From a virus, in IMG/VR virus record IMGVR_UViG_3300028008_000125, positions 1 through 21,676 of that record: DNA of 21,676 nucleotides. The stretch is one strand, 5' to 3'. The notes under the pieces were generated by a model, which was not told the origin of the DNA, did no database searches, and was given only the letters and a program-made list of their open reading frames with translations. The position numbers and the translations under genes are program-made. Shown here one piece after another: positions 3,673-21,676 of the stretch (positions are counted from its first letter, which is position 1; the number at the start of each line of letters is the position of its first letter).

Positions 3673-3681
3673 AATAAATAC
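3673..3681 (+). promoter_or_regulatory. Candidate T4-type late promoter (AATAAATAC)
   Basis: AATAAATAC lies in the 40-base gap between two fibre genes, 29 bases before the downstream ATG. T4 late promoters have the core TATAAATA, and marine T4-like phages are known to use relaxed (N)ATAAATA versions. The same nine bases occur at 9119-9127 at nearly the same distance from another fibre start. A ribosome site (AGGGG, 3695-3699) follows. The call rests on the motif and its placement only. Confidence 0.55.
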
Positions 3682-5236: not shown

Positions 5237-8200
5237 ATGGCAAATATTACAGCAGCACGAATTAATAACCTACAAAACAGAATTTCATTAATTTATGGTC
5301 AAGGCGCAGGCCAAAGTGGTTACGGACAAACACTATCAAGTAGCCAAGTTAGTTCAGTCGAAGGCGAAGTTAGAGCAGCTGATCTTAATAACATATATGC
5401 AGATATTTTAAATGCTAGAGTACACCAGGTTGGTGTTGGTAATTTATCAATCGATACAGTAATAAGTGGATCAAATACCGTAGCAGAAGAAACAAGTGCA
5501 TTTCTAAGCGATGACGGAATACTTACAGATGACCCTGATGGGTTTAAGAAAGGTATAGCTGACTACGAAGCATTAATGACTTTAATTGAAACTAATAAAT
5601 TTATTGTATCACCGTCACAAGCAGAACAATCACTTAAATTAACTGATATACGATCAGCGTCATGGAACGGATTAATTTATCAAGTATTTACAGTAACATT
5701 TAATGATTCAGATCACAGACGTAACTTTTTTAATAGCGGCGGACAAATAAGAATAGCAGCAGCTAATTCTGCATCAAAAACACAAAAAGGACTTGATTGG
5801 GCGCAATTACTTGCTGAAGTTGGAACAATCTCATTTGGATATAACAACACTGTAGTAAACTCTACTCAAGTATCTTCTGTAGGCAATTATGACCTTACAT
5901 CTGCGTATCAACAGATTTATTACAAAGCCGGTACTGGATATACAAGTGCCGTATACGAAAATAATACTTTTAAAATTAACGCTAGAGAGTTGACTGGTAG
6001 TAAAATTGAATTTAGAATTGAGTTTGATGATACTGTCTTTGATAACGTAGTTGACAATAATGTAGACGGAAGACTTGAAAGTAATGCACAATTATACATT
6101 GCTAAAGGAAACTATGTATCTGTTGAAGATCCTACATTTTCCATCACAACATCAGTATCAGGATTTGACTCTCCTGCAGAGATTAATAGGAGCCCAGAAT
6201 ATTCTATTGGAGTTGACTTAGCAAGGAATCAATATGAAATTCATAATGCAAATGCACAACAATATGCAAGTATAGATTATGTTGTAAATGCAGTAAATGT
6301 CGATTACCCGATTACATTATACTGGGATACAGAAGCTGTTAGTGGCAATGTTACTGCGGCAGACTTTGATGACAACACTCTATCAGGAAGTATTACAATT
6401 ACCGCAGCATATACACAAGCTGAACGAACTATTAATAGAACACTTTTAGCTGATAACTTTACTGAAGGTACTGAAAGTTTTAGATTAAGGTTATACACAG
6501 ATGCGTCACTGTCAAGTTTTGTTGACTCGACCGGAGTTGTTACAATAGTAGATAATTCTGTAGGTGTTACACCTGCACCTACACCTACATATTCAATAAC
6601 ATCAGAATATTCGAGTGTAACAGAAGGAGAATCATCAACATATACTGTATCTACTAGTAATGTACCTAATGGTATATTATATTGGACAACTACAGGGGCG
6701 GGCATAACTGCTGGAGATTTTACTGATAATACACTTAGTGGAACTGTTGAAGTATTTGGCGGAACAGGTCAATTTATTCGTACTACTAGAGCAGATTTAG
6801 CAACTGAAGGCACAGAGGTTTTTGACATACAACTAAGAACAGGCTCAGTTAATGGCACAGTTGTGTTAACAGCAGGCAATGGCGCAGCAACGTATATATC
6901 AGATACTTCACTAACACCGCCGACAGCAACTTTCTTATCCAACAGCGGCACGTCAGTAGTTTCTACTACACCAGGAATATACAAATGGACTGCTCCGTCT
7001 CATATTAATAATGTAACTGTGCAAGCAATCGGCGCAGGTGGCTCAGGATATAGCAACGGCGGCGCAGGCGGCGGTGGCGGAGGCTATGCATCTAGTACAG
7101 TCTCAGTAAATCCAGGACAAACATATGACGTAGCAGTTGGTGCAAACGCAAGTAATTCAGCAGGCGGAAATACATATTTTAGAACATTAAACACTGTGTC
7201 GGGTAGAGGCGGAAGTCAAGGCTCTTTTGTGTCCAATAATACTACTTTATCACCAGGTGCAACCGGCGGAGGATTTGTTGGAACAACTGGTGGCAATGGC
7301 GGTGCCGGCGGCGCTGGGTACTATACTTATGGTGGAGGCGGCGGAGGCGGCGTTGGAGGCTACGGCGGCACCGGAGGCACAGGAGGCACAGGAGGCCGAT
7401 CGATATCTGGAATATCAGCAACTAACGGAACAGCAGGCGCAAACGGAGCCGGAGGCGGCGGTGGCGGAGGCGGTACAACTAGTCCTAGTTACGGGGCAGG
7501 TGGCGGAGGTGGCGTAATAGCTACAGCTACATCTGCGCCATGGGCTGGCGGAACTTTTGGAACGGCTAATGGCTCTACTGGCACAGGCGGTGGTGGTGTC
7601 GGACCTGGCGTTACTAGCTTTGATGGTGCTGATGGCAGTTCTACTGGCGGAGGCGTAGGCGGCAACTATGGTGGAGGCGGCGGAGCATCAGGAGGCAGCG
7701 GTGGCGGCACTTCAGCATCTGGCGGCCCTGGCGCAATTGTATTATCGTGGGATGCAGTACCTGCGCCGACACCGGCAATAGTTCCTGCAATATCTACTTC
7801 TTCTAGCAATCTACAATTTACGTCACCTTCTGGAGTAAGACCAAGCCCGCAGCGTATTACATTTACATCAAACGCAGCAGTAACAGTAACAGGTATATCA
7901 GTTAGTCAAAGTAGTGCATCTGCTACAAGTATTGATTATACAGGAGCCTTAGGTGTACCAAGCGGTGTTGCTAACTTCTCAGTTACTCCGAGCTCGAGTA
8001 AATATATAGATGTTACATTTTATAGATTTGGAAGTTCAGGAACATCAACACTAACAATAAGTACAACTGCAGGCACAAAAGTTGTACAACTTAATTGGAC
8101 AGCAGAAGTAGATCAAACTCCGACATATAGCATGACTGTAGATAGCGGTCGAGCTGGATATCCAACAGTAGGTGATGAAACAACATATTCGGCATTTGTA

Positions 8201-9091
8201 TACACAGTAACAACTACTAATGTTCCAAACGGAACAGTACTATACTGGGTTAATAAACAAACATCTTCACCCGCACCTATTTCTGCAAATGATGTTAACG
8301 GACTCACTGGAACAGTTACAATTAGTAATAATTCAGGATCATTTACTAGGACAGCAGTAGCTGACGCTACAACTGAATCAGGTACAGAATTTTTTGGAAC
8401 AGAATTAAGAACTGGAAGTGTCGCAGGCCCAGTAGTCCAAAATGCAATTTATGCTGCTATACAAGACTCATCTTTAACTCCAGCAGCACCAGTACCGACA
8501 TATAATCCATCAATAAGTCTACCTACATCAGTAACAAGAGGCGAAACGTTTGCTTATGCTATTAACGGTGGAGCACCAGGAACAACATGGACAGCTAATA
8601 ACGGAATATCAGAAGCTACAGGAACTTTTGACAACAACGGTGATTTTTCAGGAACTACTGTAATTAATAGCGCAGGATCTTACACTTATGTTGTAACCTA
8701 TTCCGATCCTACATCGACTACAGACACGTTTAATATTACAGTAGTTGATCCAGAACCAGTATCACAAGATACTCCTGTAACAGTTAGCCCTACAAGTAAA
8801 TCAATTGAAATTGATCCAGGCACACAAATTGCAGCAGCTAGTTTTGTAGTTACTAATCCAACTGATGAGATCCTTAATATAAGTGTACAAGAGATTAGTA
8901 GACCATCAGGAACAAATACAGGTATTTCAGCTAGAAGCTTTGTACTTGCTCCGGGTGCAACTAGGCGTGTAGGAGTAGCCGGCAATACTAGTAATTTAAA
9001 TGCAAACACATATACATTTAATTTTGGTATTCTTGCAGCAGGTTATCCGGGAACATATCCTAAATTTTCTCTAGTGCTATACAGACAATAA
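5237..9091 (+). CDS. Giant modular adhesin / tail fibre with glycine-rich domain
   Basis: A 1284-aa protein, probably a host-recognition fibre. Residues 1-300 are an anchor domain shared with the next gene: MANITAARINNLQNR, GYGQTL, HQVG, and RRNFFNSGGQIR at 161-172, a motif common in marine phage structural proteins. Two Calx-beta-like modules follow (about 325-445 and 448-556), each with a TEGTE loop, the second ending DTSLTPP. Residues about 580-840 are a glycine-rich domain introduced by IYKWTAP and VTVQAIGAGGSG, with long GGX runs, closing on GGPGAIVLSWD. After it come an Ig-like module (about 845-960), a third Calx-beta-like module (about 963-1085, TESGTE variant), a PKD/Ig-like module with GTFDNNGDFSGT and GSYTYVV (about 1088-1175), and a C-terminal Ig-like module. 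No signal peptide or membrane segment is visible. TAAGGA (5225-5230) is the ribosome site and overlaps the previous stop. Receptor binding is inferred. Confidence 0.88.
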   Translation: MANITAARINNLQNRISLIYGQGAGQSGYGQTLSSSQVSSVEGEVRAADLNNIYADILNARVHQVGVGNLSIDTVISGSNTVAEETSAFLSDDGILTDDPDGFKKGIADYEALMTLIETNKFIVSPSQAEQSLKLTDIRSASWNGLIYQVFTVTFNDSDHRRNFFNSGGQIRIAAANSASKTQKGLDWAQLLAEVGTISFGYNNTVVNSTQVSSVGNYDLTSAYQQIYYKAGTGYTSAVYENNTFKINARELTGSKIEFRIEFDDTVFDNVVDNNVDGRLESNAQLYIAKGNYVSVEDPTFSITTSVSGFDSPAEINRSPEYSIGVDLARNQYEIHNANAQQYASIDYVVNAVNVDYPITLYWDTEAVSGNVTAADFDDNTLSGSITITAAYTQAERTINRTLLADNFTEGTESFRLRLYTDASLSSFVDSTGVVTIVDNSVGVTPAPTPTYSITSEYSSVTEGESSTYTVSTSNVPNGILYWTTTGAGITAGDFTDNTLSGTVEVFGGTGQFIRTTRADLATEGTEVFDIQLRTGSVNGTVVLTAGNGAATYISDTSLTPPTATFLSNSGTSVVSTTPGIYKWTAPSHINNVTVQAIGAGGSGYSNGGAGGGGGGYASSTVSVNPGQTYDVAVGANASNSAGGNTYFRTLNTVSGRGGSQGSFVSNNTTLSPGATGGGFVGTTGGNGGAGGAGYYTYGGGGGGGVGGYGGTGGTGGTGGRSISGISATNGTAGANGAGGGGGGGGTTSPSYGAGGGGGVIATATSAPWAGGTFGTANGSTGTGGGGVGPGVTSFDGADGSSTGGGVGGNYGGGGGASGGSGGGTSASGGPGAIVLSWDAVPAPTPAIVPAISTSSSNLQFTSPSGVRPSPQRITFTSNAAVTVTGISVSQSSASATSIDYTGALGVPSGVANFSVTPSSSKYIDVTFYRFGSSGTSTLTISTTAGTKVVQLNWTAEVDQTPTYSMTVDSGRAGYPTVGDETTYSAFVYTVTTTNVPNGTVLYWVNKQTSSPAPISANDVNGLTGTVTISNNSGSFTRTAVADATTESGTEFFGTELRTGSVAGPVVQNAIYAAIQDSSLTPAAPVPTYNPSISLPTSVTRGETFAYAINGGAPGTTWTANNGISEATGTFDNNGDFSGTTVINSAGSYTYVVTYSDPTSTTDTFNITVVDPEPVSQDTPVTVSPTSKSIEIDPGTQIAAASFVVTNPTDEILNISVQEISRPSGTNTGISARSFVLAPGATRRVGVAGNTSNLNANTYTFNFGILAAGYPGTYPKFSLVLYRQ
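6979..7755 (+). other. Glycine-rich (polyglycine) domain-coding segment
   Basis: About 260 residues within the first giant adhesin, dominated by GGX and GGGGG runs encoded by ggc/gga/ggt codons. This makes a local GC-rich island in an otherwise AT-rich window. It includes a short tandem array of the 9-mer GGAGGCACA (7373-7390, plus a degenerate third unit) encoding GGT repeats. The leading IYKWTAP...VTVQAIGAGGSG and the NPGQTYDVAVG strand resemble the lead-in of glycine-rich phage fibre domains. By analogy with T4-like gp38-type adhesins, such runs can pack as polyglycine helices presenting variable loops; that structural reading is inference. Confidence 0.75.
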
Positions 9092-9118
9092 TATAAAAAA
9101 ATAGTCATGGGTATTTTT

Positions 9119-9127
9119 AATAAATAC
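9119..9127 (+). promoter_or_regulatory. Candidate T4-type late promoter (AATAAATAC)
   Basis: AATAAATAC sits in the 63-base gap before the largest gene, 28 bases ahead of its ATG, matching the spacing of the copy at 3673-3681. A short AT-only inverted repeat (AAAAATA 9097-9103, TATTTTT 9112-9118) lies immediately upstream. A purine-rich GAGAG (9145-9149) is the likely ribosome site. Confidence 0.55.
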
Positions 9128-9154
9128 ACAGTATATAAAAATTAGAGAGATTGC

Positions 9155-12100
9155 ATGCCCACTACTATTTTAGCTACCCGATTTAATAATCTGCAAGACA
9201 GACTTGATGCTGTACTAGGCACGTCAGGTTCTGCTGCTCCAACATTTGGATACGGGCAAACACTTAATGCAGCATTGGATGTTGCAGGCACCCGCGCAAA
9301 CACACTGCCAAATTCAGATAAAATTACTGCACAACAGTACGAAGATTTGTATATTGACATTGTTCGATGTAGAGCACACCAAGTTGGCGCCGCAGCAGTT
9401 ACTATAGATGATTTTGTAATTGGTGATTTTGAAACTAATGCAGCTAACACTGATAAAGTAGAAGAAGCATACATTAGTGCTCTTGAGTCATTAATGACTA
9501 CTATAGAATTAAATCGCTTTGATATTGATATTGCAACACAAGCAACAACAGCATTACTAACAACAGCAGCTAATGTACCAATATCGAGTACATACACTAA
9601 TAGTGTAAATGGATCTTGGACTAACTTTCTTAATCAAATATTTACTGTAACATTTCCTACTGTAGAAGATCGTAGGCATTTTTTTAACGCTGGCGGCGAA
9701 ATACGTTTTAATGCCGAAGTAGCATATACAGGAGCCCAACAAAAAACAGCTGATTGGCAATCTTCTATGGCAGCAATGGGAGTTATTAGTTTTACAGCAG
9801 ATGATACTTACAGTAATTCTAGTGTAGGATCTGCAAGTAATATTGGTAACAACTCTTTAACAAGTACATATCAATTGTGTTATAGAAACGATGCTGGCAC
9901 AACATATTCACAAAGTGCATACGAATTATATGCATTACAAACAGGCCCACGTACAATTCAGTTTAAAGTATTTTTTACAGATCCAAACCCGGGAGGCTGG
10001 TCAATTGATGAGCCGGTATTTGGAGACTGGACTAGTAGTGCTTCATTATTGATCCCGGATGGATCTGTTACTATTAACGGAATAACACATAACACTGTGG
10101 TAATTGAGAGTTCTCAATTACCTTCAGGTAGCAATATTGTTAATTTAAGTGCAAATCCGCCACCAGTTCCGTCATATAATTTATCAAGATCAACATCAGC
10201 GGCAAGCGAAGGAAACTCAGCAACAATAACATTAGCAACTGGAAATGTTTCTAATGGAACAACTATACCATATACAATTACTGGGGTAACTACAAGTGAC
10301 ATAAATATCCCCTTACAAGGAAATTTTGTAGTAGGAGTTACTAATTCAGTAACTATTACTTTTGCTAATGATTTATTAACTGAAGGAACTGAGACTCTTA
10401 CACTAGCATTAAATAATGGAGCATCTACTATTAGTGTAAATATTAACGATACTTCGTTAACGCCGCCTGCTGCTGGCACAAAATTAAATCAATATTGTGT
10501 TGGCGATGATTTATACGGGACTTATGCAAATGGATCAGGCGGAACTTATGCTGCACTAATACAAACAAATAGTGCAACGTGTGGTTATGTTCCGCCATTT
10601 ACGTTTAGCATAACTCCTACAGCTTATCTAACACAAAACACTGCATGGGACATTGGCGATGTTGTAATTAACACAACAGCAACTACTAATATTACAATTA
10701 CAGCACCAGCTGGTGTTCGATCAGGAGTAGTAACAGTTCAATCAACCTCTAGACCGAGTGAATGGGCAGTGGCTGTTGACGATGTATCAAGTGCTACAAC
10801 TGCTAGTAAAAATTATAATCTTGCAGCAGGACAATCGATTACTGTTCCAATTAGTGTTACACCATCCTCAGTCCTAGACTTTGCTGCTGTAAATAGACAA
10901 TTTGATTTCACAGTCCTTGAAGCTACTGGCGCCGGCCCATCTTATAAAGTATATTGGACGGGTGCAGGTGTACCTGTGCCACTAACGCCAAATATCAACA
11001 CTACGCTTAATGTTGATAAGGTAATAGGCAACGAAACTACTTCTAATACATTTACATTTAGCGGAACAGTAACAGGTTGGGAGTCAACCACTGGCTCAGT
11101 ATCTTGGCAACAAGTTGGCGATGAGATGAATGCCAATGATTTCATCAACGGTACAACCGGCACAGCACCGGTTACTATCACTAACAGTCCTAACACAGGT
11201 GATGGCACATACTCATTTACACGATCTATAAGAGCTGACTCGACAACAGAGGGTACGGAAGAATTTGGAACTAGAACATATTTGGCATCTACCCCAACTG
11301 TTCAGTCTCAAACTAGAGTTGTTAGTGTTAGTGATACAAGTGACGATCCCCCAGTTGCAGCGCAATTTTCCAGCGGAAGATTTGGCAATGCTCATACATT
11401 TAGTATAGCCCCAACAGAAACTACAACTTGGACTACAAGCGTGTCGTTAACTAGTGCGCCGAACAACAATCCAGTTGAGCTTACTGTTAGGGCATCAAGC
11501 TGGTATAATACATGGAACGTTACTATAAACGGAAGTGTTGTTGCTGTTGCCGGCGGTGCTAGTGCAATGCATACGTTTAGTATAACACCTGGCCAATCTG
11601 AAACAATAACAATATCTGTAACTGCTACAGATGGCCCGCATAATGCAAGCACTGGACAGCTTGTCTTGTACCAGGGATCTGGCACAAGCGGATCACCTAT
11701 ACTTGATAGACATTATTATACAGGAACAACAACAGCTTGGGCAGCCCCAGTTATTCAAACCGCAGGATTTAGTCCTCCAAATCCAACAGTTGGAACTCCT
11801 GCATCACTATATTACACCACTTCTAATGCTACACAGGTAGATTACTCTATTACAGGTAGTGCTTTGCCTGACGACCTTGCGGTAACTTATGATAATGGGT
11901 TAATACCAGATGATCTTTATGTCAATGCAAACGTTGACGATATTACATTTCCGGTTGAAGGAACTGCAAATTGGTCTGTTATTGCAAGTACACCAGACGG
12001 GCAAACTGACACGGCAAGCGGCCAACTTACAACAACACTTATTGAATCAGATTTTAGTATTCTGCTTGATTATACTGTCGGCACAGCAACCGGCACCATA

Positions 12101-15100
12101 CAGTATTTTGAAGGCGATACAGTTGGATTTAGATTAAGATACAAGAATTTTACTGACAGTACATTTGTTAGTAAAATCTTTAGAAATAGAGGAAGCGGCA
12201 ATATTGCAGCTGAATTTGGTGGATCTGACACAGTTACCTTTACAGGCTTAAATACAAGTCAAGATAATGTGATGAGATATGCATATGCATCTCTCCCAAC
12301 CACTGTTGATAGTGATTATGAACCTTTCATTGAAAGCTATAGATTATCAGATAGCACCGGCGTACCCACTTATACGACATTCTTAGTTTCAGATAGACCG
12401 CTACCAAACACCTGGGAAATCTTAGAAACATCTGTTCCGGTACGCAGCCTGTTTACATACTCTGCTACAGGCTTTCCGACAACAACAGTAACATATACCG
12501 CAGCGTCAGTACCTGATTATAATCAACAAGGTAGTAGTTTTACAATACCAAATAGTGGACGATATAGTCGACAGTCTATGCATACATTACCAGGTGATTT
12601 TACATATGTTGCCACCTTCCCTCAGCAATACCCAAACGCTCCGCAGCCGTTGGGTATGGAGATTACAGCAACGGTAAGAATATGTCCAGTACTATCAATA
12701 ACAATGGATAGTACTGCGCTACCAGGAGATAGTGTAGCAATAACAATTAGCGGCGGCTTACGAAATGGCTATTTCTTCTGGGGACACGACCAAGCCGCTG
12801 GCGGTGTCAGATTAAGATTTAATAACAGCGGAGTTGCATCATTTAACTTTAATGCAGGTTCTCCGGCAACTTATACATACACAGTTACAGAAGAGTTCTG
12901 TAGTGGAACAGCTTCAGCTACACTAATTGTGCAACAAGTATATTCACCGTCTGCATCAGTATCTCCAGCAAGTCCTTACATAAATGAACTTACTGCGTTA
13001 AATATCGTTGGCGGTCGCCCGGGCAGTAGCTTTAATATTACAGGACCTCATCCTATATCTAATGCTAGTTTTAATAACGAAGGAAGATTTACTACATCAA
13101 GTGCTTATTCTACAGCTGGCACTTTTAACTACGTTATAGCTGTTCCTTCCCCGGACACTAACGGTGCGTTTACGATAGTAGTTCGAAATGAGCCACCGCC
13201 GCTATACACGCCCAATCTTACCTTAATTCAACCAAGTACAAATGAATCAGTCACCGGCGCAATTACCGGCGCCTTACCAAACGGTTCTTACTTCTGGTCT
13301 GCAACAAACAATGCATCTGACAGCGGTCCAACTAGCGGCACGTTAGACGGTGCCGGCAATGGATCATTTAGTTATACACGGGATGACACTACTTCGTCTA
13401 CGTATGCTTCTGTTTCGTTTATGAGTATAGCGTCTTATGCCGAAGGGTATGCGCAAATTAATTATACACTAGAAGGAATAGCTGCACCACTACCACTACC
13501 AACTCCAACTATATCTTGGACAGCGGCGGCGAGTCCTGTAATTCAAAACGTTACTAATGCTACTTTAAGTTGGAATGCCGGCGCCGATGCTGCTACTGCG
13601 TCAACTGTAATAGTAGATCCTAACGGTGGTTCAGGCACAGTGCCTGGCTTAACTTACAATACAACAAGTGTTCTTGCTTTGCCTGGTACATATACTGCTA
13701 CTATTACAGCAACTAATTCAACAGGATCTGCTACTGAATCAGCATCTATAACAGTAGTTAGTCCAGCAGATCCACCCGAACCAATAATACAGTTCCTGTC
13801 GGCTACATACACAGTTGGTGAAACTATTCAGGCAGCAGTTAATCCGGATAGTGCCGGCGGAACATATAGTAGTTATAGTTATATACGAGACCCTAGCAAT
13901 ACTATTATAGCAGATTCCCAATCAATAAGTCCTCACACACTTAGTGCAACTGCTACTACTACTGGAACACATACAGCAGGTATGCTAGTATTGTATAGAG
14001 GAAATTCCAATGAACAACTGTCAGTATCTGGTGGGCCTGACTCGACATCAGTATCAGCACCAGCAGGTACAGGATCAATATCATTTGATCAATCATCTTA
14101 TTATGTGGGAGAGACTATAGCTGCTAACTATACAACTTCAAATGCAAATAGTGTAACTGCAACTATATCTAAAGATGGCACATCGCTGGTGTCAACAAAC
14201 ACTTCACCAAACGGCACACTAACATATGAAGCATTGACTGCTGGAACATACGGCGCAGGATTGTCAGTAAACAATTCAGTAGTATCTACAGACACTGTTT
14301 CAGTTGGAGTACCGGCGCCAGTAATTAATTCTTTTTATTGGAGCCCGTCGTCAATAGAAGTAGGTGATTCTAATACACTGTATTGGGATGTTACAGGCGC
14401 AACATCAATAGTAGTAACTGGTGATACTGGAACCTACAGTTTAGGACCATCAGGCACACGGGCAAATGGACCGTATCTTGGCGCCGGAAACTTTAATACA
14501 ACATTAACAGCTTATAATGCAGGTGGCACTGTTACTGCTACTGCTCCGATTACAGTAACAGCACCAGCTCCAGCAGCACCGAGTATTAGTTTTGGTCCTC
14601 AAGTTGGAATTATTAATGATACCCAGTATACACTGACGTGGACTGCAAACGGAGTAAGCTCTCCGAGTATAGCTATTACAGATCCAAATGGTACCGTCAC
14701 TTCGTTTACTACTCTTACTGGCAGCTATACAAGCACATTAGGTGTACAGGGTATATGGTCAGCTACTATAACAACTGCTGGCGGCACAGCTTCTGCATCA
14801 GTCACAGTTAATAATGCTCCTGAGGAACCACCGGCTGTTGGCACACTATTAAGTACATATTGTGTTGGTACAACACAATGGGGCATTTACTCCGGCGGCT
14901 ACGGTCCAGACACATACGCAATTATTCAAACAAATAGTATATCTTGTGGATACACACCCCCACCGCCGGCAGCTGGAACAGTGCTTAGTTCTAACTGTAG
15001 TGGAACTACATTAGTTCAGCAAATAGCTGACGGCAGCGGTGGATCGAATACAGTCGAAACACCAAACAGTACAGAATGCGGATATACTCCACCACTAAGC

Positions 15101-15352
15101 TACACTGTAACAATAAGTGTATTTGTAGGACCGTATAACGGGTCAACATCATTATGTACAGCTTATTTTACTGGAACTCCAGGTGCTTCTTATGGATGGG
15201 CCGCTGGCGGATCAAGCGGCAGTGGCACTTTCAATTCTGCCGGTGCTGACTCGATTAGTGCAGCATTGCCCTCAGGCACTTATTTCGGCGCAATCTACAG
15301 CGGTGGACAGTCTGCTTCAACAAGCTGGACTGTAGGTGGCATCGCTGATTAA
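9155..15352 (+). CDS. Giant modular Ig-like adhesin / tail fibre (2065 aa)
   Basis: The largest gene in the window. Residues 1-320 repeat the anchor domain of the preceding gene (ATRFNNLQDRLD, GYGQTL, HQVG, and RRHFFNAGGEIR at 173-184). The rest is a chain of beta-sandwich-type modules: a Calx-beta-like module with TEGTE (about 339-438), a Cys-pair module (441-478), an Ig-like module (about 480-605), another Calx-beta-like module (about 610-733), a second Ig-like copy (about 735-865), then many PKD/Ig-like modules, several with an NGxFxW or PGxxF strand and an AGTFNYV-type strand. Two further Cys-pair modules (1896-1933, 1941-1977) precede a final module ending in SWTVGGIAD. No enzyme motif, signal peptide or membrane segment is seen. 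It probably forms a long fibre or surface spike that binds the host. The size is unusual for a single fibre subunit, but the frame is intact throughout. Confidence 0.88.
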   Translation: MPTTILATRFNNLQDRLDAVLGTSGSAAPTFGYGQTLNAALDVAGTRANTLPNSDKITAQQYEDLYIDIVRCRAHQVGAAAVTIDDFVIGDFETNAANTDKVEEAYISALESLMTTIELNRFDIDIATQATTALLTTAANVPISSTYTNSVNGSWTNFLNQIFTVTFPTVEDRRHFFNAGGEIRFNAEVAYTGAQQKTADWQSSMAAMGVISFTADDTYSNSSVGSASNIGNNSLTSTYQLCYRNDAGTTYSQSAYELYALQTGPRTIQFKVFFTDPNPGGWSIDEPVFGDWTSSASLLIPDGSVTINGITHNTVVIESSQLPSGSNIVNLSANPPPVPSYNLSRSTSAASEGNSATITLATGNVSNGTTIPYTITGVTTSDINIPLQGNFVVGVTNSVTITFANDLLTEGTETLTLALNNGASTISVNINDTSLTPPAAGTKLNQYCVGDDLYGTYANGSGGTYAALIQTNSATCGYVPPFTFSITPTAYLTQNTAWDIGDVVINTTATTNITITAPAGVRSGVVTVQSTSRPSEWAVAVDDVSSATTASKNYNLAAGQSITVPISVTPSSVLDFAAVNRQFDFTVLEATGAGPSYKVYWTGAGVPVPLTPNINTTLNVDKVIGNETTSNTFTFSGTVTGWESTTGSVSWQQVGDEMNANDFINGTTGTAPVTITNSPNTGDGTYSFTRSIRADSTTEGTEEFGTRTYLASTPTVQSQTRVVSVSDTSDDPPVAAQFSSGRFGNAHTFSIAPTETTTWTTSVSLTSAPNNNPVELTVRASSWYNTWNVTINGSVVAVAGGASAMHTFSITPGQSETITISVTATDGPHNASTGQLVLYQGSGTSGSPILDRHYYTGTTTAWAAPVIQTAGFSPPNPTVGTPASLYYTTSNATQVDYSITGSALPDDLAVTYDNGLIPDDLYVNANVDDITFPVEGTANWSVIASTPDGQTDTASGQLTTTLIESDFSILLDYTVGTATGTIQYFEGDTVGFRLRYKNFTDSTFVSKIFRNRGSGNIAAEFGGSDTVTFTGLNTSQDNVMRYAYASLPTTVDSDYEPFIESYRLSDSTGVPTYTTFLVSDRPLPNTWEILETSVPVRSLFTYSATGFPTTTVTYTAASVPDYNQQGSSFTIPNSGRYSRQSMHTLPGDFTYVATFPQQYPNAPQPLGMEITATVRICPVLSITMDSTALPGDSVAITISGGLRNGYFFWGHDQAAGGVRLRFNNSGVASFNFNAGSPATYTYTVTEEFCSGTASATLIVQQVYSPSASVSPASPYINELTALNIVGGRPGSSFNITGPHPISNASFNNEGRFTTSSAYSTAGTFNYVIAVPSPDTNGAFTIVVRNEPPPLYTPNLTLIQPSTNESVTGAITGALPNGSYFWSATNNASDSGPTSGTLDGAGNGSFSYTRDDTTSSTYASVSFMSIASYAEGYAQINYTLEGIAAPLPLPTPTISWTAAASPVIQNVTNATLSWNAGADAATASTVIVDPNGGSGTVPGLTYNTTSVLALPGTYTATITATNSTGSATESASITVVSPADPPEPIIQFLSATYTVGETIQAAVNPDSAGGTYSSYSYIRDPSNTIIADSQSISPHTLSATATTTGTHTAGMLVLYRGNSNEQLSVSGGPDSTSVSAPAGTGSISFDQSSYYVGETIAANYTTSNANSVTATISKDGTSLVSTNTSPNGTLTYEALTAGTYGAGLSVNNSVVSTDTVSVGVPAPVINSFYWSPSSIEVGDSNTLYWDVTGATSIVVTGDTGTYSLGPSGTRANGPYLGAGNFNTTLTAYNAGGTVTATAPITVTAPAPAAPSISFGPQVGIINDTQYTLTWTANGVSSPSIAITDPNGTVTSFTTLTGSYTSTLGVQGIWSATITTAGGTASASVTVNNAPEEPPAVGTLLSTYCVGTTQWGIYSGGYGPDTYAIIQTNSISCGYTPPPPAAGTVLSSNCSGTTLVQQIADGSGGSNTVETPNSTECGYTPPLSYTVTISVFVGPYNGSTSLCTAYFTGTPGASYGWAAGGSSGSGTFNSAGADSISAALPSGTYFGAIYSGGQSASTSWTVGGIAD
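10099..10122. repeat. Perfect 11-bp inverted repeat inside the giant adhesin gene
   Basis: GGTAATTGAGA (10099-10109) and TCTCAATTACC (10112-10122) are exact reverse complements separated by two bases. As a hairpin this gives a ten-pair stem with a four-base loop. It lies in frame within the coding sequence, at the end of the conserved anchor domain and just before the first Calx-beta-like module. No T-run follows, so it is not a standard terminator. Its function, if any, is unknown. Confidence 0.8.
10475..10588 (+). repeat. Cys-pair module, copy 1 (C-x27-CGY)
   Basis: Encodes residues 441-478 of the 2065-aa adhesin. The pattern is GTxLxxxC, a glycine-rich middle, QTNSATCGY, then PP. The cysteines are at residues 448 and 476. 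Two further copies lie near the C-terminus. The pairing suggests a disulfide-closed or metal-bound small module, which is inference. Confidence 0.8.
14840..14953 (+). repeat. Cys-pair module, copy 2 (C-x27-CGY)
   Basis: Residues 1896-1933 of the giant adhesin: GTLLSTYC, a glycine-rich middle, then QTNSISCGY and a proline run. The cysteines are at residues 1903 and 1931, the same spacing as copy 1. The IQTNS stretch is identical to copy 1 in protein. It is directly followed by copy 3. Confidence 0.8.
14975..15085 (+). repeat. Cys-pair module, copy 3 (C-x26-CGY)
   Basis: Residues 1941-1977 of the giant adhesin: GTVLSSNC, DGSGGSN, then TPNSTECGY and PP. The cysteines are at residues 1948 and 1975, one residue closer than in the other copies. 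This copy is more diverged, keeping the ends and the NS-x2-CGY signature. Confidence 0.75.
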
Positions 15353-15371: not shown

Positions 15372-15418
15372 TTGACAAATCTCTAAAAGTGTTATATACT
15401 ATTATATAATACAAGGAG
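15372..15418 (+). promoter_or_regulatory. Sigma70-type promoter and ribosome site before the glycosyltransferase/radical SAM cassette
   Basis: TTGACA (15372-15377), a 17-base spacer and TATACT (15395-15400) form a near-consensus sigma70 promoter in the 73-base gap after the adhesin gene. A strong AAGGAG (15413-15418) lies seven bases before the ATG at 15426. This is the best promoter in the window and contrasts with the late-type motifs before the fibre genes. It suggests that the downstream cassette can be read by unmodified host RNA polymerase, early or independently of late transcription; that timing is inference. Confidence 0.7.
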
Positions 15419-15425
15419 ATCCTCT

Positions 15426-15785
15426 ATGGACGAACGTCTAGAAAAAGCAATTGATTTTTCAAACTACATAGTTACCCTCAACAATCAAAAACGTTTATTA
15501 AAAGAAGAGTATGAAGAAAATTTATTACATTATTTTAATGGTGGACAATTTACCATTACTAAAGAGTTAATTACGTTCGTTGGTTTACTAGTAAATTCTA
15601 AAAATGTCGAAGATGTAGTTCTAACAGACGATAACAGTATTCCGATTAAAATTGAAGACCTTGCTAAATTCTATGAAGATGTGACGGATTGTTATTTTTC
15701 TGCATCTAATAGCTATCATACAAAATATAACATTTTAAAAAAACAACGCTCAGTTGAAGCATTAGTAGGACTAAAAGTTGACTAA
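15426..15785 (+). CDS. Hypothetical protein, 119 aa, first gene of the cassette
   Basis: I do not recognise the family. The protein is small, hydrophilic and probably mostly helical, with a charged N-terminal stretch (MDERLEKAIDFSNYIVTLNN, then RLLKEEYEENLL) and a basic tail segment (ILKKQRSVEALVG). No signal peptide, membrane segment or cysteine cluster is present; there is one cysteine near residue 89. The start is well supported: AAGGAG sits seven bases upstream and a sigma70-type promoter precedes it. The last eight bases overlap the start of the following glycosyltransferase, so translation of the two is probably coupled. A cassette-specific accessory role is possible but unproven. Confidence 0.8.
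   Translation: MDERLEKAIDFSNYIVTLNNQKRLLKEEYEENLLHYFNGGQFTITKELITFVGLLVNSKNVEDVVLTDDNSIPIKIEDLAKFYEDVTDCYFSASNSYHTKYNILKKQRSVEALVGLKVD
15766..15770 (+). promoter_or_regulatory. Ribosome site supporting a TTG start
   Basis: TAGGA seven bases before TTG at 15778. An in-frame TAA at 15772-15774 leaves only one codon upstream, so translation of the next gene must begin at or after this TTG. Confidence 0.55.
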
Positions 15786-16623
15786 AGGTGCATTACTTAT
15801 TGCAAGGAACAATGGCGAACTTGATTATGCCAAGCAAGCAGTTTTCTTAGCTAAACGAATTAAACAACACCTTAATATACCTACAAGTGTTATTACTGAT
15901 AGTGTTGACTATATAAACGACTCATTAGATCACACAGTGTTTGATGAGATTATACCCATTGGTTATACAAACGATAACAATACTAGAAAATATTACGACG
16001 GCACTCTTGCATCTAAAACACTTAATTTTAAAAATAATTATAGAATAAATGCATACGATCTTAGTCCATATGATGAAACGTTATTGTTAGACACTGACTA
16101 CATTATTTCTAATGACTTATTTAAGTCGTGTTTTGATAGTTTAAGTGATTTGCAGATGTTTTCAAAATCACAAGATATTGCAAATATACGAGATAGTAGA
16201 GAGTTTATACACATAAGTGAGTATAGTGTTGATTTTTACTGGGCAACTGTTGTATTTTTTAGAAAAACACCTAACAATGAATTATTTTTTAATCTAATAA
16301 AACATATACAAGATAATTGGAGTCATTATGTATCTGTATATCAATTATCTTCTAGCTTGTTTAGGAATGACTTTGCATTTAGTATTGCAGCTCATATATT
16401 AAATGGATTTATGACAGGCGACTATGTATCTCCTTTACCAGGAAAGCACATGTATACAACAGACAAAGATATATTGTGGAAATTAGAAGACGATAACTTT
16501 ACATTTTTAGTTGAAAAAAAGGATTATGTGGGAGAATATACTGCCGTAAAAACACAAGGGCAGAGTATACACGTAATGAATAAGTTTAGTTTAGAACGGA
16601 TAATTAATGATGAACAAAACTAA
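15778..16623 (+). CDS. Putative GT-A-fold glycosyltransferase (copy 1), TTG start
   Basis: A 281-aa protein with the layout of GT-A-type sugar transferases. The N-terminal strand TKGALLIARNN and helix DYAKQAVFLAKRI are followed by SPYDETLLLDTDYII, with the metal/nucleotide-sugar DxD motif (DTD) at residues 105-107. It is a paralogue of the next gene: TKG...NN..DY..QA..LA and SPYD(E/Q)T...DTD line up, with the proline eight residues before the motif in both. The start is the unusual codon TTG. An in-frame stop lies two codons upstream, and the conserved N-terminus begins right at this codon. The gene overlaps the previous one by 8 bases and the next by 17. The donor and acceptor sugars cannot be read from the sequence. 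Modification of a surface glycan or virion protein is inferred from the neighbours. Confidence 0.78.
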   Translation: MTKGALLIARNNGELDYAKQAVFLAKRIKQHLNIPTSVITDSVDYINDSLDHTVFDEIIPIGYTNDNNTRKYYDGTLASKTLNFKNNYRINAYDLSPYDETLLLDTDYIISNDLFKSCFDSLSDLQMFSKSQDIANIRDSREFIHISEYSVDFYWATVVFFRKTPNNELFFNLIKHIQDNWSHYVSVYQLSSSLFRNDFAFSIAAHILNGFMTGDYVSPLPGKHMYTTDKDILWKLEDDNFTFLVEKKDYVGEYTAVKTQGQSIHVMNKFSLERIINDEQN

Positions 16624-17461
16624 GGGAATAGTAGTACTTGCACAAAACAACGAGACTACTGACTATGTTCAACAGGCTTGTCTTTTAGCATTAAGTTTAA
16701 AATTTACTAATTCTAATTGTAAAATTAGTATTGTAACTAATGATAACATTTCTGCAAAATATAAAAATCTATTTGATGAGATTATCAGTATTCCGTGGGA
16801 CGACTCAGCAATAGACACTGAATGGAAAATTGAAAATAGATGGAAACTTTATCACTGTTCTCCGTATGATCAGACTATAGTAATGGATACAGATATGTTG
16901 GTTCTCCAAGATATATCAACGTGGTGGACTTTTTTGTCTAACTACGAAGTATTTTTTACTACTAAGGTACACACTTACCGTGGCAACGAAGTTACTGGAG
17001 ATTATTATAGGAAAGCCTTTGTAAATAATAATTTGCCAAATTTATATAGTGGCTTTCATTATTTTGAAAAATCAGACTTTGCATTAGAATTTTATACATG
17101 GTTAGAATTAGTAGTAACAAACTGGCAAAAGTTTTATGAAATTTTTATTAAACATGATAAACCTACGTGGTGTAGTATTGATGTATGTACTGCAATTGTT
17201 ACACTTATTTTAAATTGTGAAGATAAAATATCAAATAAGATTGCAAAATTTCCATCGTTTACTCATATGAAGCCAAATATACAAGATTGGTATAGCAACA
17301 AAAACAAATGGAAAGATTGCATTGATGTATATCTAGATAATAATCTACAACTTAAATTAGGCAATCATCATCAAACTGGAATATTACATTATACAGAAGA
17401 TGATTTTATAAAACTATCTATGTTAAAATCTTACTATAAGGAATTATATAATGACAACTGA
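16607..17461 (+). CDS. Putative GT-A-fold glycosyltransferase (copy 2)
   Basis: A 284-aa paralogue of the preceding gene. It begins MMNKTKGIVVLAQNNETTDY, and the helix QACLLALSL follows. SPYDQTIVMDTDMLV carries the DxD motif (DTD) at residues 94-96. Later parts include a tryptophan-rich stretch (STWWTFL), SGFHYFEKSD, and a C-terminal HHQTGILHY that may supply a metal or phosphate ligand as in related GT-A folds; that last point is inference. Two adjacent ATG codons (16607, 16610) are possible starts and differ by one residue. GGA at 16598-16600 serves either. The gene overlaps the previous one by 17 bases and the next by 11. It may act in sequence with its paralogue on the same acceptor. Confidence 0.78.
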   Translation: MMNKTKGIVVLAQNNETTDYVQQACLLALSLKFTNSNCKISIVTNDNISAKYKNLFDEIISIPWDDSAIDTEWKIENRWKLYHCSPYDQTIVMDTDMLVLQDISTWWTFLSNYEVFFTTKVHTYRGNEVTGDYYRKAFVNNNLPNLYSGFHYFEKSDFALEFYTWLELVVTNWQKFYEIFIKHDKPTWCSIDVCTAIVTLILNCEDKISNKIAKFPSFTHMKPNIQDWYSNKNKWKDCIDVYLDNNLQLKLGNHHQTGILHYTEDDFIKLSMLKSYYKELYNDN

Positions 17462-18071
17462 TACTTTGTCAGCACTTTTTAAAACTTTATCAATAGATTC
17501 AGCTAGTAACGATACTAAGTTTGTATATTATCACAAAGCAACTGGAGAGATTCAGAGAATTTCTAACATTAGCTTTCTTGAAGAAGGTTATGAGTGTTTA
17601 GAAGTCTTGTCGGATAAAGTAGCTGATATTTTATTAGGAAAAAAAGATTTATCTAACTATAAAATAATGTTTAATTTTAAAACACGAGAATTAGAACTGC
17701 AAGAAAATTCTCCTATTAAAATAGCAAATATTACTGATAAATTACATAATATACCGCTGAATTCACGTGAGCCTGATTTAATAATCAAATGCGGCACTGA
17801 GAAATGGACAGTTTGCCTTTCTCCTCGACATCAAGATTATTTTAGATCAATGACGTCAGTGGTTGATGATATAAAATTTAATTTTAGTATTACCAAAAAG
17901 AATGATCCTAATATATTAATTGATATGTTCAAAATTGAATTATACGAGTTATTATCTATCCCAGAAGTTGACATTAGTGGACAGATTAATATTCCTAAAA
18001 ATATAGACAATGTTAGCATATATACTTTTAAATATTTTAACAACTACGGCTATGAGATTATAAATGAATAA
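17451..18071 (+). CDS. Hypothetical protein, 206 aa, between glycosyltransferases
   Basis: I do not recognise the family. The protein is mixed alpha/beta in appearance, with KFVYYHKATGEIQRIS near residues 23-38, a hydrophilic centre, and a C-terminal part rich in aromatic residues (YTFKYFNNYGYEIINE). There are three scattered cysteines (ECLEV, IKCGT, TVCLSP), no signal peptide and no membrane segment. The start has a good ribosome site (TAAGGA, 17437-17442, eight bases away) and overlaps the previous gene by 11 bases. The end overlaps the next gene by 8. Placement inside a run of glycosyltransferases suggests a partner or structural protein of the same process, but nothing in the sequence shows which. 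Confidence 0.78.
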   Translation: MTTDTLSALFKTLSIDSASNDTKFVYYHKATGEIQRISNISFLEEGYECLEVLSDKVADILLGKKDLSNYKIMFNFKTRELELQENSPIKIANITDKLHNIPLNSREPDLIIKCGTEKWTVCLSPRHQDYFRSMTSVVDDIKFNFSITKKNDPNILIDMFKIELYELLSIPEVDISGQINIPKNIDNVSIYTFKYFNNYGYEIINE

Positions 18072-18993
18072 ATTTAGAGTTACAGACTATGATATAATCT
18101 ATTTGTCTTATGACGAGCCAAATGCAGAAAAAAATTATGCAGATCTGTGCCAAAAGATTCCGTGGGCTAAACGTGTACACGGTGTAAAAGGCAGTGATGC
18201 TGCACACAAAGCTTGTGCAGAACTAAGTGAAACAGATAGATTTATTACTGTAGACGGTGACAATAGAATCCGTGAAGAGTTCCTAAATCAAGTTCTTGAC
18301 TTTGACGAACATCAAGATTTAACAAATACAGTAATAAGCTGGTGCGGCAAAAATGAAATTAATGGCCTAACATACGGTAACGGTGGACTTAAATGTTGGC
18401 CTAAAGATTATGTACTTAATATGCGTACACACGAAAACGCTGATCCTGATAATAAACATGCACAAGTAGACTTCTGTTGGGATGCACAATACATTCAAAT
18501 GAATAGTTGTTACTCAGATGTGTACAATAATTATACCGCCCAACAAGCATGGAGAGCAGGATTTAGAGAAGGAGTAAAGCTTGCAACTGACCGCGGTTTA
18601 CGATTATCTAAAGAAGAACTAAAAAACAATCATTGGCGGTGTTTACATATGCTATATGTTTGGAGTATGGTAGGCGCAGATGTAGAAAATGGTCTTTGGG
18701 CTATATATGGCGCAAGAGAAGGGCTGTACATGACAATGTGTACAGACTGGGATTATGTACAAGTGCGTGATTTTGATTATCTCAATGATTATTGGAAAAA
18801 TGTAGTTTCAAAAAATATAACAGAAGAAACCTTGTTAGGATCGATTGAACATCTAGGCGCTAGTCTTATTGATGAATTGGATATTCCAATTTCGATAAAT
18901 CCATTAGATGCACAACAAAGTAAATTCTTTAAAACAGTGTACCAATATACTCGCCAGCCTCTATCTAAACAACTTATAATTGATAAAGAATAG
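18064..18993 (+). CDS. Putative glycosyltransferase (GT2-like, DGD motif)
   Basis: A 309-aa protein. The N-terminus DYDIIYLSYDEPNAEKNYAD followed by KRVHGVKGSDAAHKAC and FITVDGDNRI matches the beginning of GT-A transferases of the GT2 type: a first beta strand, a nucleotide-binding region, then a DxD motif (DGD, residues 64-66). The middle contains ISWCGKNEINGLTYGNGGLK, as expected for an acceptor/donor pocket. A tryptophan- and tyrosine-rich helical part follows, including AWRAGFREGVKLA and NHWRCLHMLYVWSMVGADV. It is not a close copy of the two upstream transferases. The start overlaps the previous stop by 8 bases, and the ribosome site is weak, so coupling is likely. The sugar and acceptor are unknown. 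Proteins of this style occur in marine T4-like phages. Confidence 0.75.
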   Translation: MNKFRVTDYDIIYLSYDEPNAEKNYADLCQKIPWAKRVHGVKGSDAAHKACAELSETDRFITVDGDNRIREEFLNQVLDFDEHQDLTNTVISWCGKNEINGLTYGNGGLKCWPKDYVLNMRTHENADPDNKHAQVDFCWDAQYIQMNSCYSDVYNNYTAQQAWRAGFREGVKLATDRGLRLSKEELKNNHWRCLHMLYVWSMVGADVENGLWAIYGAREGLYMTMCTDWDYVQVRDFDYLNDYWKNVVSKNITEETLLGSIEHLGASLIDELDIPISINPLDAQQSKFFKTVYQYTRQPLSKQLIIDKE

Positions 18994-18997
18994 TTAA

Positions 18998-20569
18998 ATG
19001 AAAAAGAACGATATTAAATTACTTAAAGACAAGAACGGTGAATTAACTAGTGATCCCTCAAATGTTGAAAACGTAAATAAGTTGTTAAACAACAAAGGCT
19101 GCGGGTTTTGCCTTGCGAAGTTTACACAGGTAACTATGCATTTAGGTACTGGTTACATGCATAGCTGTCATCATCCTAAAATGCATAAAATACCTTTAGA
19201 TGAATTACAAGAAGACTATCGTGCATTATTTAATACCAAGCATCTAAAAACTGCTCGAAAAGAAATGCTTAATAATCAAAAACCTTCTGAGTGTGATTAT
19301 TGTTGGCGTATAGAGAATGACGGCAATCTTAGTGACCGCAGTTTTAAAAGTATGAAATCGTGGGCACTTGATCGTCATGACGATATTATAGCGTCAACAG
19401 GAGACGAAAACATAACTCCTACATACCTAGAGGTTAGTTTTAGTAATGCATGCAATATGAGTTGTTTATATTGCGGCCCTGAATTTAGTACTACATGGGT
19501 AGATGACCTTAAACAAAAAGGCCCAATGAAAGTTTTAGAAGGATTAGCTGATAATGAACGTTGGGTACAAGGTTGGCAAGATCTTGATAATTTAGCATAT
19601 AAAAATAAAGACCACAATCCTTACATTGAAGCATTTTGGAAATGGTTTCCTGAAATTTATCCTGGGTTAGAACATTATAGAATTACCGGTGGCGAGCCGT
19701 TAATGAGTAAAGAAACATTTAAAACTATAGATTGGATTTTTGAGAATCCTAACGATAAACTTGATTTTTCGATCAACACTAATTTAAGTGTTGTTGATAG
19801 TATATGGGATCGATTTATTGATAAGTTAATAAAAATTAAAGATAATAAAGTTAAAAGCGTTACAATTTACACTAGTGTCGAAGGATATGGAAAACGTGCA
19901 GAGTATGTGCGTAGAGGATTAGATTTTGAGGTTTTCAAAAAGCGATATGAACAACTTGCTAATCTAGGCAATGTTAAAGTTGTTATTATGGCAGCATACA
20001 ATGTATTAAGTATTACAAGTTTTGGCAAGCTACTAGAATGGCAATTAGAGATGAAGAAAAAATATCACTTTAATACGCCTGTGCTTTGGTGGGAAGAAAA
20101 TCTTCCATTTTCTTTTAGAGAAGGAATGTCTAATAATGAATTAAAAAAGCGTTCTCCGTCTCATGTAGTTCCATTAGGATTAGATATTCCGTATTTAAGA
20201 TATCCGCCATTTTTAGACGCCCAAATATCTACTGATAAATTAGTACAAGATTATATGTTACCTACAATGGACTATATGGCAGCTAATACAATTGATAATA
20301 AATGGCAAATGCATCTTTCTTTTGAACTTAACGAAATGTATAAACTTAAATCAATTACAGAACACCGATTAAAAATATCTTGGACAACTAAACCCGGAAC
20401 AGAAGAGCATTATAAAACTATTATTATACCTAGAGCAGAGCTTTATGACTTCCTTAACGTTAAAGACGCTCGCGACGGAACTAATTTCCTAGAAACTTTT
20501 CCCGAAATGGCAGAATTTTATGAAGAATGTAGATTAGCTAAAGAAATAGTAAGATCTAAAATAGCATGA
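18998..20569 (+). CDS. Radical SAM protein with N-terminal twitch-like cysteine domain
   Basis: A 523-aa radical SAM enzyme. The [4Fe-4S] cluster that cleaves S-adenosylmethionine is bound by CNMSCLYC (C152, C156, C159), preceded by the strand YLEVSFSNA. The SAM-binding TGGEP motif is at 230-234. Ahead of this core is a second cysteine set, C35 and C38 (CGFC), C57 (HSCHHP), C99 and C102 (CDYCWRIE). This looks like an auxiliary-cluster 'twitch' domain placed at the N-terminus, where such domains usually follow the core. Marine phage proteins of this type are annotated as twitch domain-containing radical SAM protein. The reaction is unknown; peptide or sugar modification is plausible. It starts four bases after the transferase upstream and overlaps the next gene as ATGA. 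Confidence 0.88.
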   Translation: MKKNDIKLLKDKNGELTSDPSNVENVNKLLNNKGCGFCLAKFTQVTMHLGTGYMHSCHHPKMHKIPLDELQEDYRALFNTKHLKTARKEMLNNQKPSECDYCWRIENDGNLSDRSFKSMKSWALDRHDDIIASTGDENITPTYLEVSFSNACNMSCLYCGPEFSTTWVDDLKQKGPMKVLEGLADNERWVQGWQDLDNLAYKNKDHNPYIEAFWKWFPEIYPGLEHYRITGGEPLMSKETFKTIDWIFENPNDKLDFSINTNLSVVDSIWDRFIDKLIKIKDNKVKSVTIYTSVEGYGKRAEYVRRGLDFEVFKKRYEQLANLGNVKVVIMAAYNVLSITSFGKLLEWQLEMKKKYHFNTPVLWWEENLPFSFREGMSNNELKKRSPSHVVPLGLDIPYLRYPPFLDAQISTDKLVQDYMLPTMDYMAANTIDNKWQMHLSFELNEMYKLKSITEHRLKISWTTKPGTEEHYKTIIIPRAELYDFLNVKDARDGTNFLETFPEMAEFYEECRLAKEIVRSKIA

Positions 20570-21676
20570 TACAATTAGCACATGACTGGATAGGACCAAG
20601 TGGCCCTTGGCCAAACGGTCAGAGTCTAGATTTACTAACATCACCTAATAATTATGAAGATTCTCATTATTCTACTACTAATACTGTTTATAATCTTGAA
20701 AGTAAAAGACATCCGTATACTTACTCTAAATTACATGCAATTTTAGGCAAAAACATAACGCACAGTCATATTCTTGATTGTAATAACAAATTTATATACG
20801 AACTAACACCATTACTTAAACCGTATCAATGGACTAATAATGCATTTGATAGTGTAAGCACAGTAGCAATGCAAGCACAACAAGCTGGTAAATGTTTGTT
20901 TATTATTAATGATATGAATGAAGGCTATTCAAATAATACATACAATTTTTTTAAGAACTTACATGAGCAACTTAATAAATTTAAATTAAATCCGGCTAAC
21001 ATATTGTACATCACAATGAATTCCCTTGCAGAAGAAGAGTATTCTAAGTGGGCAAAGGTAAATAATATACCTTGTACAATCAATATATCTACTGTTTATT
21101 TGTACGAGTCTGTAGATGACTTAACTGCTACTATAACTAAGCCTGCAAAGCATTTTATTTGTCTTAATAGACAGCCAAATCCATTAAGACAGTGTTTAGT
21201 ATATGAATTATGGAGAAGAGATTTATTACAATACGGTCATATTAGTATGCCAGACGTAAATGAAACATTAGATTTTCATTTTGATAAAACAAATCTTCAA
21301 TTATTCAATATAGATGATAGTCGCTGGCAAGAATTTTTAGACACACTTCCTTATATTGCAGATGGAAGAAGTTTTACAGATCAAACGTGCAACACTAATT
21401 CTATAACAGATTTTTATTACGACAGTGTTTATAGTATTATTACAGAAAATACTATAGGTGAAACTGATTGTATAAAGTTATCTGAAAAAACATTTAGGAG
21501 TTTAGGTAATTATTGTTTGCCGTTACATATGTATAGCAAGGGAACCGGACAACAACTTGCTAGATTGGGATATAAATTAGATTGTAAGGAGTATGATAAT
21601 ATAGTAGACGATAGCAAACGTTTTCAAGCATTAATTAATAAAATAGAAAAAATTTGTCAAATAAATATTAATACAC
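20566..21676 (+). CDS. Unknown-function protein of the modification cassette (3' partial)
   Basis: An open frame of 370 complete codons runs from ATG at 20566 off the right edge with no stop. Its start overlaps the radical SAM stop (ATGA), so translation is coupled. The N-terminus is MIQLAHDWIGPSGPWPNG. Two motifs stand out: HFICLNRQPNPLR (from residue 196) and SEKTFRSL (from residue 306), the latter followed within 35 residues by QQLARLGYKLD. Phage and bacterial proteins with an FxCLNR strand plus an S/TEKTxK...LG end have the feel of the nucleotide-sugar-binding half of GT-B transferases (EKT acting as a donor-binding segment). That comparison is from memory and is inference. No signal peptide or membrane segment is seen. 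Confidence 0.72.
   Translation, partial: MIQLAHDWIGPSGPWPNGQSLDLLTSPNNYEDSHYSTTNTVYNLESKRHPYTYSKLHAILGKNITHSHILDCNNKFIYELTPLLKPYQWTNNAFDSVSTVAMQAQQAGKCLFIINDMNEGYSNNTYNFFKNLHEQLNKFKLNPANILYITMNSLAEEEYSKWAKVNNIPCTINISTVYLYESVDDLTATITKPAKHFICLNRQPNPLRQCLVYELWRRDLLQYGHISMPDVNETLDFHFDKTNLQLFNIDDSRWQEFLDTLPYIADGRSFTDQTCNTNSITDFYYDSVYSIITENTIGETDCIKLSEKTFRSLGNYCLPLHMYSKGTGQQLARLGYKLDCKEYDNIVDDSKRFQALINKIEKICQININT

Follow-up and report, generated by a model that had tools for sequence, protein, structure and literature searches.

Immediately behind the fibre genes of a 21,676-base virus fragment (the window, by which we mean the whole stretch of DNA analysed) lie seven tightly coupled open reading frames, g1 to g7, at 15426-21675. 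Our preferred reading, to which we give a probability of roughly one half, is that they belong to an island of glycan genes, headed by a promoter of early type, that remodels the surface glycan of the infected cell. Comparison with related loci indicates that the cassette is real and common and under selection for function; its first five genes form a nearly constant core, and g6 opens an exchangeable tail.

Layout of the cassette and the fibre genes

Open reading frame calling on the window placed g1 at 15426-15785 (119 aa, with the Shine-Dalgarno sequence AAGGAG), g2 at 15778-16623 (281 aa), g3 at 16607-17461, g4 at 17451-18071, g5 at 18064-18993, g6 at 18998-20569 and g7 at 20566-21675, all on the + strand. 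The last of these is open at its 3' end, where it is cut by the end of the record. The reading frame of g2 begins with TTG, and its homologues start at the identical residue. The close packing reported in the original prediction proved exact throughout: g1/g2, g2/g3, g3/g4 and g4/g5 overlap by 8, 17, 11 and 8 bases, g5 and g6 are separated by a gap of 4 bases, and g6 and g7 share an ATGA overlap. Of the bounds given there for the cassette, 15372 and 21676, the former coincides exactly with the start of a sigma-70-like promoter, which the original prediction did not mention, and the latter marks the end of the record, not of the island.

Upstream, and also on the + strand, are f3 (3710-5227, 505 aa), which encodes a fibre-type virion protein with PHROG tail fibre and virion matches, and f5 (9155-15352, 2065 aa), which encodes a giant fibre-type protein. 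The products of f5 and f4 (1284 aa) have an N-terminal domain in common, which also occurs in single proteins of about 300 aa at the same place in relatives. Both bear very long repetitive extensions (5237-15352), and GC content peaks at 0.536 in a glycine-rich region at 7001-8000.

Recurrence in related phages

Relatives were collected with three seeds, g1 and g5 having been added because the g6 seed was biased. The g1 and g5 seeds each gave about 600 matches, of which the best 80 were used, so that the figures derived from them are valid for the nearer relatives, and the two sets of loci have some contigs in common. The gene order, which the original prediction had proposed to look for in other phage contigs, does recur: all seven genes stand in the same order in 43 loci of the g6-seeded scan, 33 of them distinct at 90% g5 identity. 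Among the long-enough loci from the best 80 g1 matches, g2-g5 were found in 52 of 52 and g6 in 47 of 52, and g1 itself is present in all cassettes. The loci from the best 80 g5 matches contain g1-g3 in 61 of 63 cases, with g6 directly 3' of g5 in 47 of 72.

Of the 134 distinct g1 genes, 133 are preceded by a fibre homologue, at a distance of no more than 250 bases in 125. The genes are thus neither scattered nor remote from fibres in the relatives, and the earlier picture of a fibre-attached, co-transcribed glycan-modification locus extends to related phages. A tblastn search of g1, g3 and g5 against 50,697 phage records returned no homologue.

The carriers appear, from their capsid sequences, to be T4-like, jumbo-type aquatic phages. 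A gp23-type major capsid protein (PF07068) is encoded on cassette contigs of G002, G003 and G017 (contig C57, together with g5). The capsid compared shares 71% identity with that of the Sinorhizobium jumbo phage Phosso, its closest cultured relative, and 65-68% with those of large phages such as PA5oct, Vibrio 2.275.O and their relatives. The cassette was also seen on two contigs of a Candidatus Neomarinimicrobiota MAG, L241 and L242 (PBPT01000016.1 and PBPT01000082.1; 335 and 153 kb). It appears that these contigs come from jumbo phages and were binned into the MAG, whose cassette contigs also carry gp23.

A fixed head and an exchangeable tail

The seven genes had been viewed as a single modification pathway with a radical SAM enzyme embedded in it. 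One co-transcribed glycan locus is what remains of that view; the radical SAM enzyme is not integral to it, as g6 and g7 are swapped as a unit. The window is 37-70% identical to the related locus L001 as far as about position 19050 and 81-96% identical beyond it, while L001 and L014 are 81-90% identical across most of g1-g5 and 39-63% identical beyond. Protein identities co-vary within g1-g5 (rho 0.74-0.89) and less so with g6 (0.36-0.52). Together, the shift at about 19050 and the weaker covariation of g6 show a breakpoint at the g5/g6 junction, from which g6 and the genes that follow are exchanged between phages as a unit. We refer to the core genes g1-g5 as the head and to g6 onward as the tail.

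The first open reading frame 3' of g5 encodes a radical SAM protein in 129 of the 161 cases scored (from 170 loci, not dereplicated). On the sugar side, the cargo families include sugar (GDP-Man) epimerase/dehydratase, UDP-glucose/GDP-mannose dehydrogenase, DegT aminotransferase and carbamoyltransferase; others are SGNH hydrolase, nitroreductase, and B12-binding and SPASM-type radical SAM proteins, and halogenase, AMP-binding and 2OG oxygenase proteins are present as well. In the nearest long relative, a 275-kb genome (G001), the head opens a run of about 42 kb with about 40 genes on the same strand; the genome has 12 N-terminal-twitch (N_Twi) radical SAM genes over the family cut-off, one of them outside this run. 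Three partial N_Twi genes, B12-radical SAM proteins and several SGNH-like hydrolases were also seen in it (L325-L327, C1:15500-62000), and almost all of these genes fall within the run. Its radical SAM load is unusually high for a phage.

So many radical enzymes in one phage, 12 over-cut-off N_Twi proteins besides the B12-radical SAM ones, might point to a metabolite, RiPP-like or an amino-sugar, that the tail makes for secretion or signalling and that the transferases glycosylate. The halogenase, AMP-binding and 2OG oxygenase cargo would suit such a product, and there is a precedent in jumbo cyanophages, for which halogenated sugar or amino-acid metabolites have been proposed (PMC7824862). 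We nevertheless think a natural product improbable: the invariable part of the locus is the transferase head and not the radical SAM enzymes, the strict docking to fibres would be left unexplained, and no precursor peptide was identified, albeit without a dedicated search.

Module swapping at the g5/g6 border would also be expected of a selfish or hitchhiking cassette that sits in a plastic host-recognition region and shares no function with the fibres, and T4-like phages commonly have fibre regions that are hypervariable (PMC7029224). This account is very unlikely, since the catalytic motifs are kept at 30-50% identity, the order of g1-g5 is fixed and a dedicated promoter is conserved, all of which argue for selection for function.

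Protein families of the cassette

The DxD-type motifs noticed in g2 (DTD), g3 (DTD) and g5 (DGD) of the window are conserved: DxD is present in 34 of 34 aligned g2 proteins, mostly as DTD, and in about 29 of 34 g3 proteins, and D-[GA]-D in 34 of 34 g5 proteins, where D64-x-D66 is invariant. By blastp, g2 and g3 are related to each other. The profile match to glycogenin is clear for g3 (E 8e-7) and weak for g2 (E 0.04). Neither window protein matches a Pfam model, the GT8 family model included, and relatives of g3 match other Pfam models only, and weakly. We therefore term the two GT8-like (or glycogenin-like) glycosyltransferases rather than GT8, the likeness consisting of the DxD motif and of profile similarity to solved GT8 enzymes, which is weak for g2. 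For g5, a GT-A/GT2-like protein, the AlphaFold2 model (pLDDT 89) was matched by Foldseek to the GT-A enzymes SunS, RmlT, TarP and GalNAc-T with E 2e-4 and probability 0.99, but with a TM-score of about 0.3. We infer that g2, g3 and g5 are putative sugar transferases.

The other two head genes are less readily placed. No family was found for g1 in Pfam, PHROG or PDB, and its identification as an 'L-shaped tail fibre assembly' protein was rejected, there being no similarity. The fast-evolving g4 protein gave a beta-rich AlphaFold2 model (pLDDT 86) with no match in the PDB and, in BFVD, matches to unnamed phage proteins only; judging by this model it could be a virion part.

The product of g6 is an N-terminal-twitch radical SAM protein, with 287.9 bits (E 1.3e-85) against NCBIfam NF033640 (N_Twi_rSAM), above the curated cut-off of 170 bits; all 34 aligned members match this model at E<=1e-5. 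The CxxxCxxC motif already noted (Cys 152/156/159) is invariant in 34 of 34 proteins, as are four N-terminal cysteines (Cys 38/57/99/102) that had been absent from the first account and that, going by the family name, would fit an auxiliary [4Fe-4S] cluster. Most of the cellular N_Twi radical SAM relatives found are from Bdellovibrionota, often with several copies per locus (L240, L243-L293). As a source or host of the cassette this group was rejected: its N_Twi proteins are distant (about 31-44% identity), and the loci seen contain no g1-g5. The g7 family has 30 aligned relatives, and the window protein has no Pfam match and no meaningful PDB match. The suggestion that it is a glycosyltransferase was dropped, as no profile match speaks for it; one relative weakly matches Stealth_CR4.

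Promoters of the cassette and of the fibre genes

Between f5 and g1, at 15372-15400 on the + strand, lies a sigma-70-type promoter motif, TTGACA-N17-TATACT, that agrees with the consensus at 11 of 12 positions and ranks in the top two of the region's 44 promoter-like sites. The element TTGACA-N17-TATA[A/C]T is found upstream of g1 in 80 of 118 dereplicated relatives, as against 2.5% under a Markov null, and the spacer is 17 in 78 of the 80. In control upstream regions, the sigma-70-type element occurs at 0-3% for f1, f2, f3, g2, g3, g6 and g7, at 5% for f4/f5, at 6% for g4 and at 17% for g5. It is absent before g1 in about one third of lineages, with TAAATA in its place in 26 of 52 tested.

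Of the f3 homologues, 95% also have TAAATA in their upstream region, against 9% of shuffled sequences; for f4/f5 the figures are 47% and 12%. In the window, the late-type AATAAATA precedes both f3 (3673-3680) and f5 (9119-9126). The relaxed motif NATAAATA has four matches in the window, of which two precede fibre genes, and the T4 late promoter TATAAATA has none. In T4-like cyanophages, sigma-70 motifs stand before early genes and NATAAATA before late genes (PMC2984593); by this rule, the predicted promoter motif suggests that the cassette is expressed early.

The promoter spacers (from -35 to -10) show more complementarity to the Shine-Dalgarno region of their own g1 than permuted spacers do (mean 13.2 versus 11.4, sd 0.27). 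In read-through transcripts, such pairing may possibly act as a terminator or lock translation. Complementarity of up to 12-13 pairs, in some cases followed by T-runs, was seen in about 10 of 74 dereplicated promoters; examples are found before position 6422 of L003, 8001 of L180 and 6428 of L002. A hairpin that hides the g1 Shine-Dalgarno in read-through transcripts was considered but not upheld as a general feature, as long stems are seen in only about 10 of the 74 and the stem in the window is 6 bp long.

Proposed role

We propose that the window holds the head of a long operon for building and modifying a glycan, docked right behind the fibre genes, which unmodified host RNA polymerase would transcribe early. 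Together with the GT-A-like g5, the glycogenin-like g2 and g3 would assemble or lengthen a short glycan that these phages have in common, and the swapped tail, with its radical SAM proteins, sugar enzymes and SGNH hydrolase, would render this glycan chemically variable. The product would alter the surface glycan of the infected cell, which could block the adsorption of competing phages or stop progeny from binding to cell debris; either effect would explain why the locus travels with receptor-binding genes.

The same transferases could instead glycosylate the adjacent f3-f5 products, with the radical SAM enzymes modifying fibre residues or the sugar and thereby tuning receptor binding or shielding. 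Such decoration of the virion would make sense of the near-perfect adjacency to fibre genes and of the large and variable f4/f5; glycogenin, which g3 resembles, is a protein-glucosylating enzyme, and SunS and GalNAc-T, both peptide transferases, are among the best fold matches of g5. We consider it rather doubtful, and remodelling of the host envelope more likely, because g1 has a host-type promoter in 80 of 118 lineages whereas f3 upstreams carry late-type sites, and because enzymes for free sugars and sugar nucleotides are found among the downstream cargo. Against our preferred reading, enzymes made early could still act on fibres later, the g1 promoter is a motif that a third or so of lineages lack, g4 could belong to the virion, and the fold match of g5 has low TM-scores. 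In addition, neither a membrane flippase nor a polymerase was identified, and any surface glycan would thus need borrowed host export.

Tentatively, and with more reason to doubt than to accept it, the head may be seen as a dedicated early glycosylation machine of a widespread uncultured jumbo clade, and the tails as interchangeable assembly lines of radical SAM enzymes, by which each phage would acquire a surface chemistry of its own. The locus would then be a viral analogue of serotype cassettes, made up largely of radical enzymes of unknown reactions. If this is true, common uncultured aquatic jumbo phages carry a standard glycosylation module with plug-in chemistry, whose promoter sets glycosylation apart from the fibres travelling alongside. 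The locus offers a concrete test of the old question of whether the surface-glycan genes of phages serve to protect the cell during infection or to decorate virions, and it supplies a list of dozens of radical SAM enzymes without an assigned reaction.

Comparison with known systems

The nearest described arrangement is the host recognition cluster of pelagimyophages, T4-like phages of SAR11, which sits between VrlC and gp14 (Zaragoza-Solas 2020; PMC7029224). There, too, tail fibres are followed by glycosyltransferases, GT8 being the commonest, and by radical SAM cassettes; these sets vary among close relatives, and O-chain modification against coinfection has been proposed. Unlike the present cassette, the cluster has no fixed five-gene head or dedicated promoter in the part of that paper cited here, and the capsids closest to that of the cassette phages are those of jumbo phages, Phosso and PA5oct among them. 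The cultured pelagimyophage HTVC008M was rejected as a member of the group, since the 93 kb examined contain no homologue of g1-g7.

Jumbo cyanophages have surface-polysaccharide (LPS) clusters that likewise combine arrays of glycosyltransferases and sugar-modifying enzymes and are proposed to ward off superinfection (PMC7824862, PMC3037559). These clusters lie near hli03 or phoH, by tRNAs, and not behind fibres (PMC3037559), and the text of the jumbo cyanophage review does not mention radical SAM (PMC7824862).

Two isolate systems offer partial parallels. Phosso (PV764938) has four annotated radical SAM genes, and a fifth recognised by Pfam, just after an f3-like fibre gene, but it has no g1-g5 homologues and its radical SAM proteins are not of the N_Twi class (at most one marginal match). 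Behind that fibre gene are a cupin, radical SAM and unknown proteins (L321:18000-25742), an experimentally accessible parallel locus. Among the 50,697 phage records, g6 matched only Vibrio phages K566 and K567 (OZ196521, OZ196593) at E<=1e-5. These also mix N_Twi radical SAM genes with GT8 and GT4 genes; isolate K566 has three beside its GT8/GT4 genes, with the lipid-A enzyme PagP about 5 kb off. However, identity to g6 is about 25%, g1-g5 are absent and the surrounding 12 kb or so contain no annotated fibre gene.

The original prediction spoke of an undescribed system. Fibre-side glycan clusters with radical SAM genes have been reported for pelagimyophages (PMC7029224), and polysaccharide clusters for jumbo cyanophages (PMC7824862); our full-text literature searches found no description of this cassette. 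In kind, the locus belongs with these phage surface-glycan clusters beside fibres, and what appears new relative to the literature searched is its architecture: a fixed five-gene head, a dedicated promoter and an exchangeable tail rich in radical SAM enzymes.
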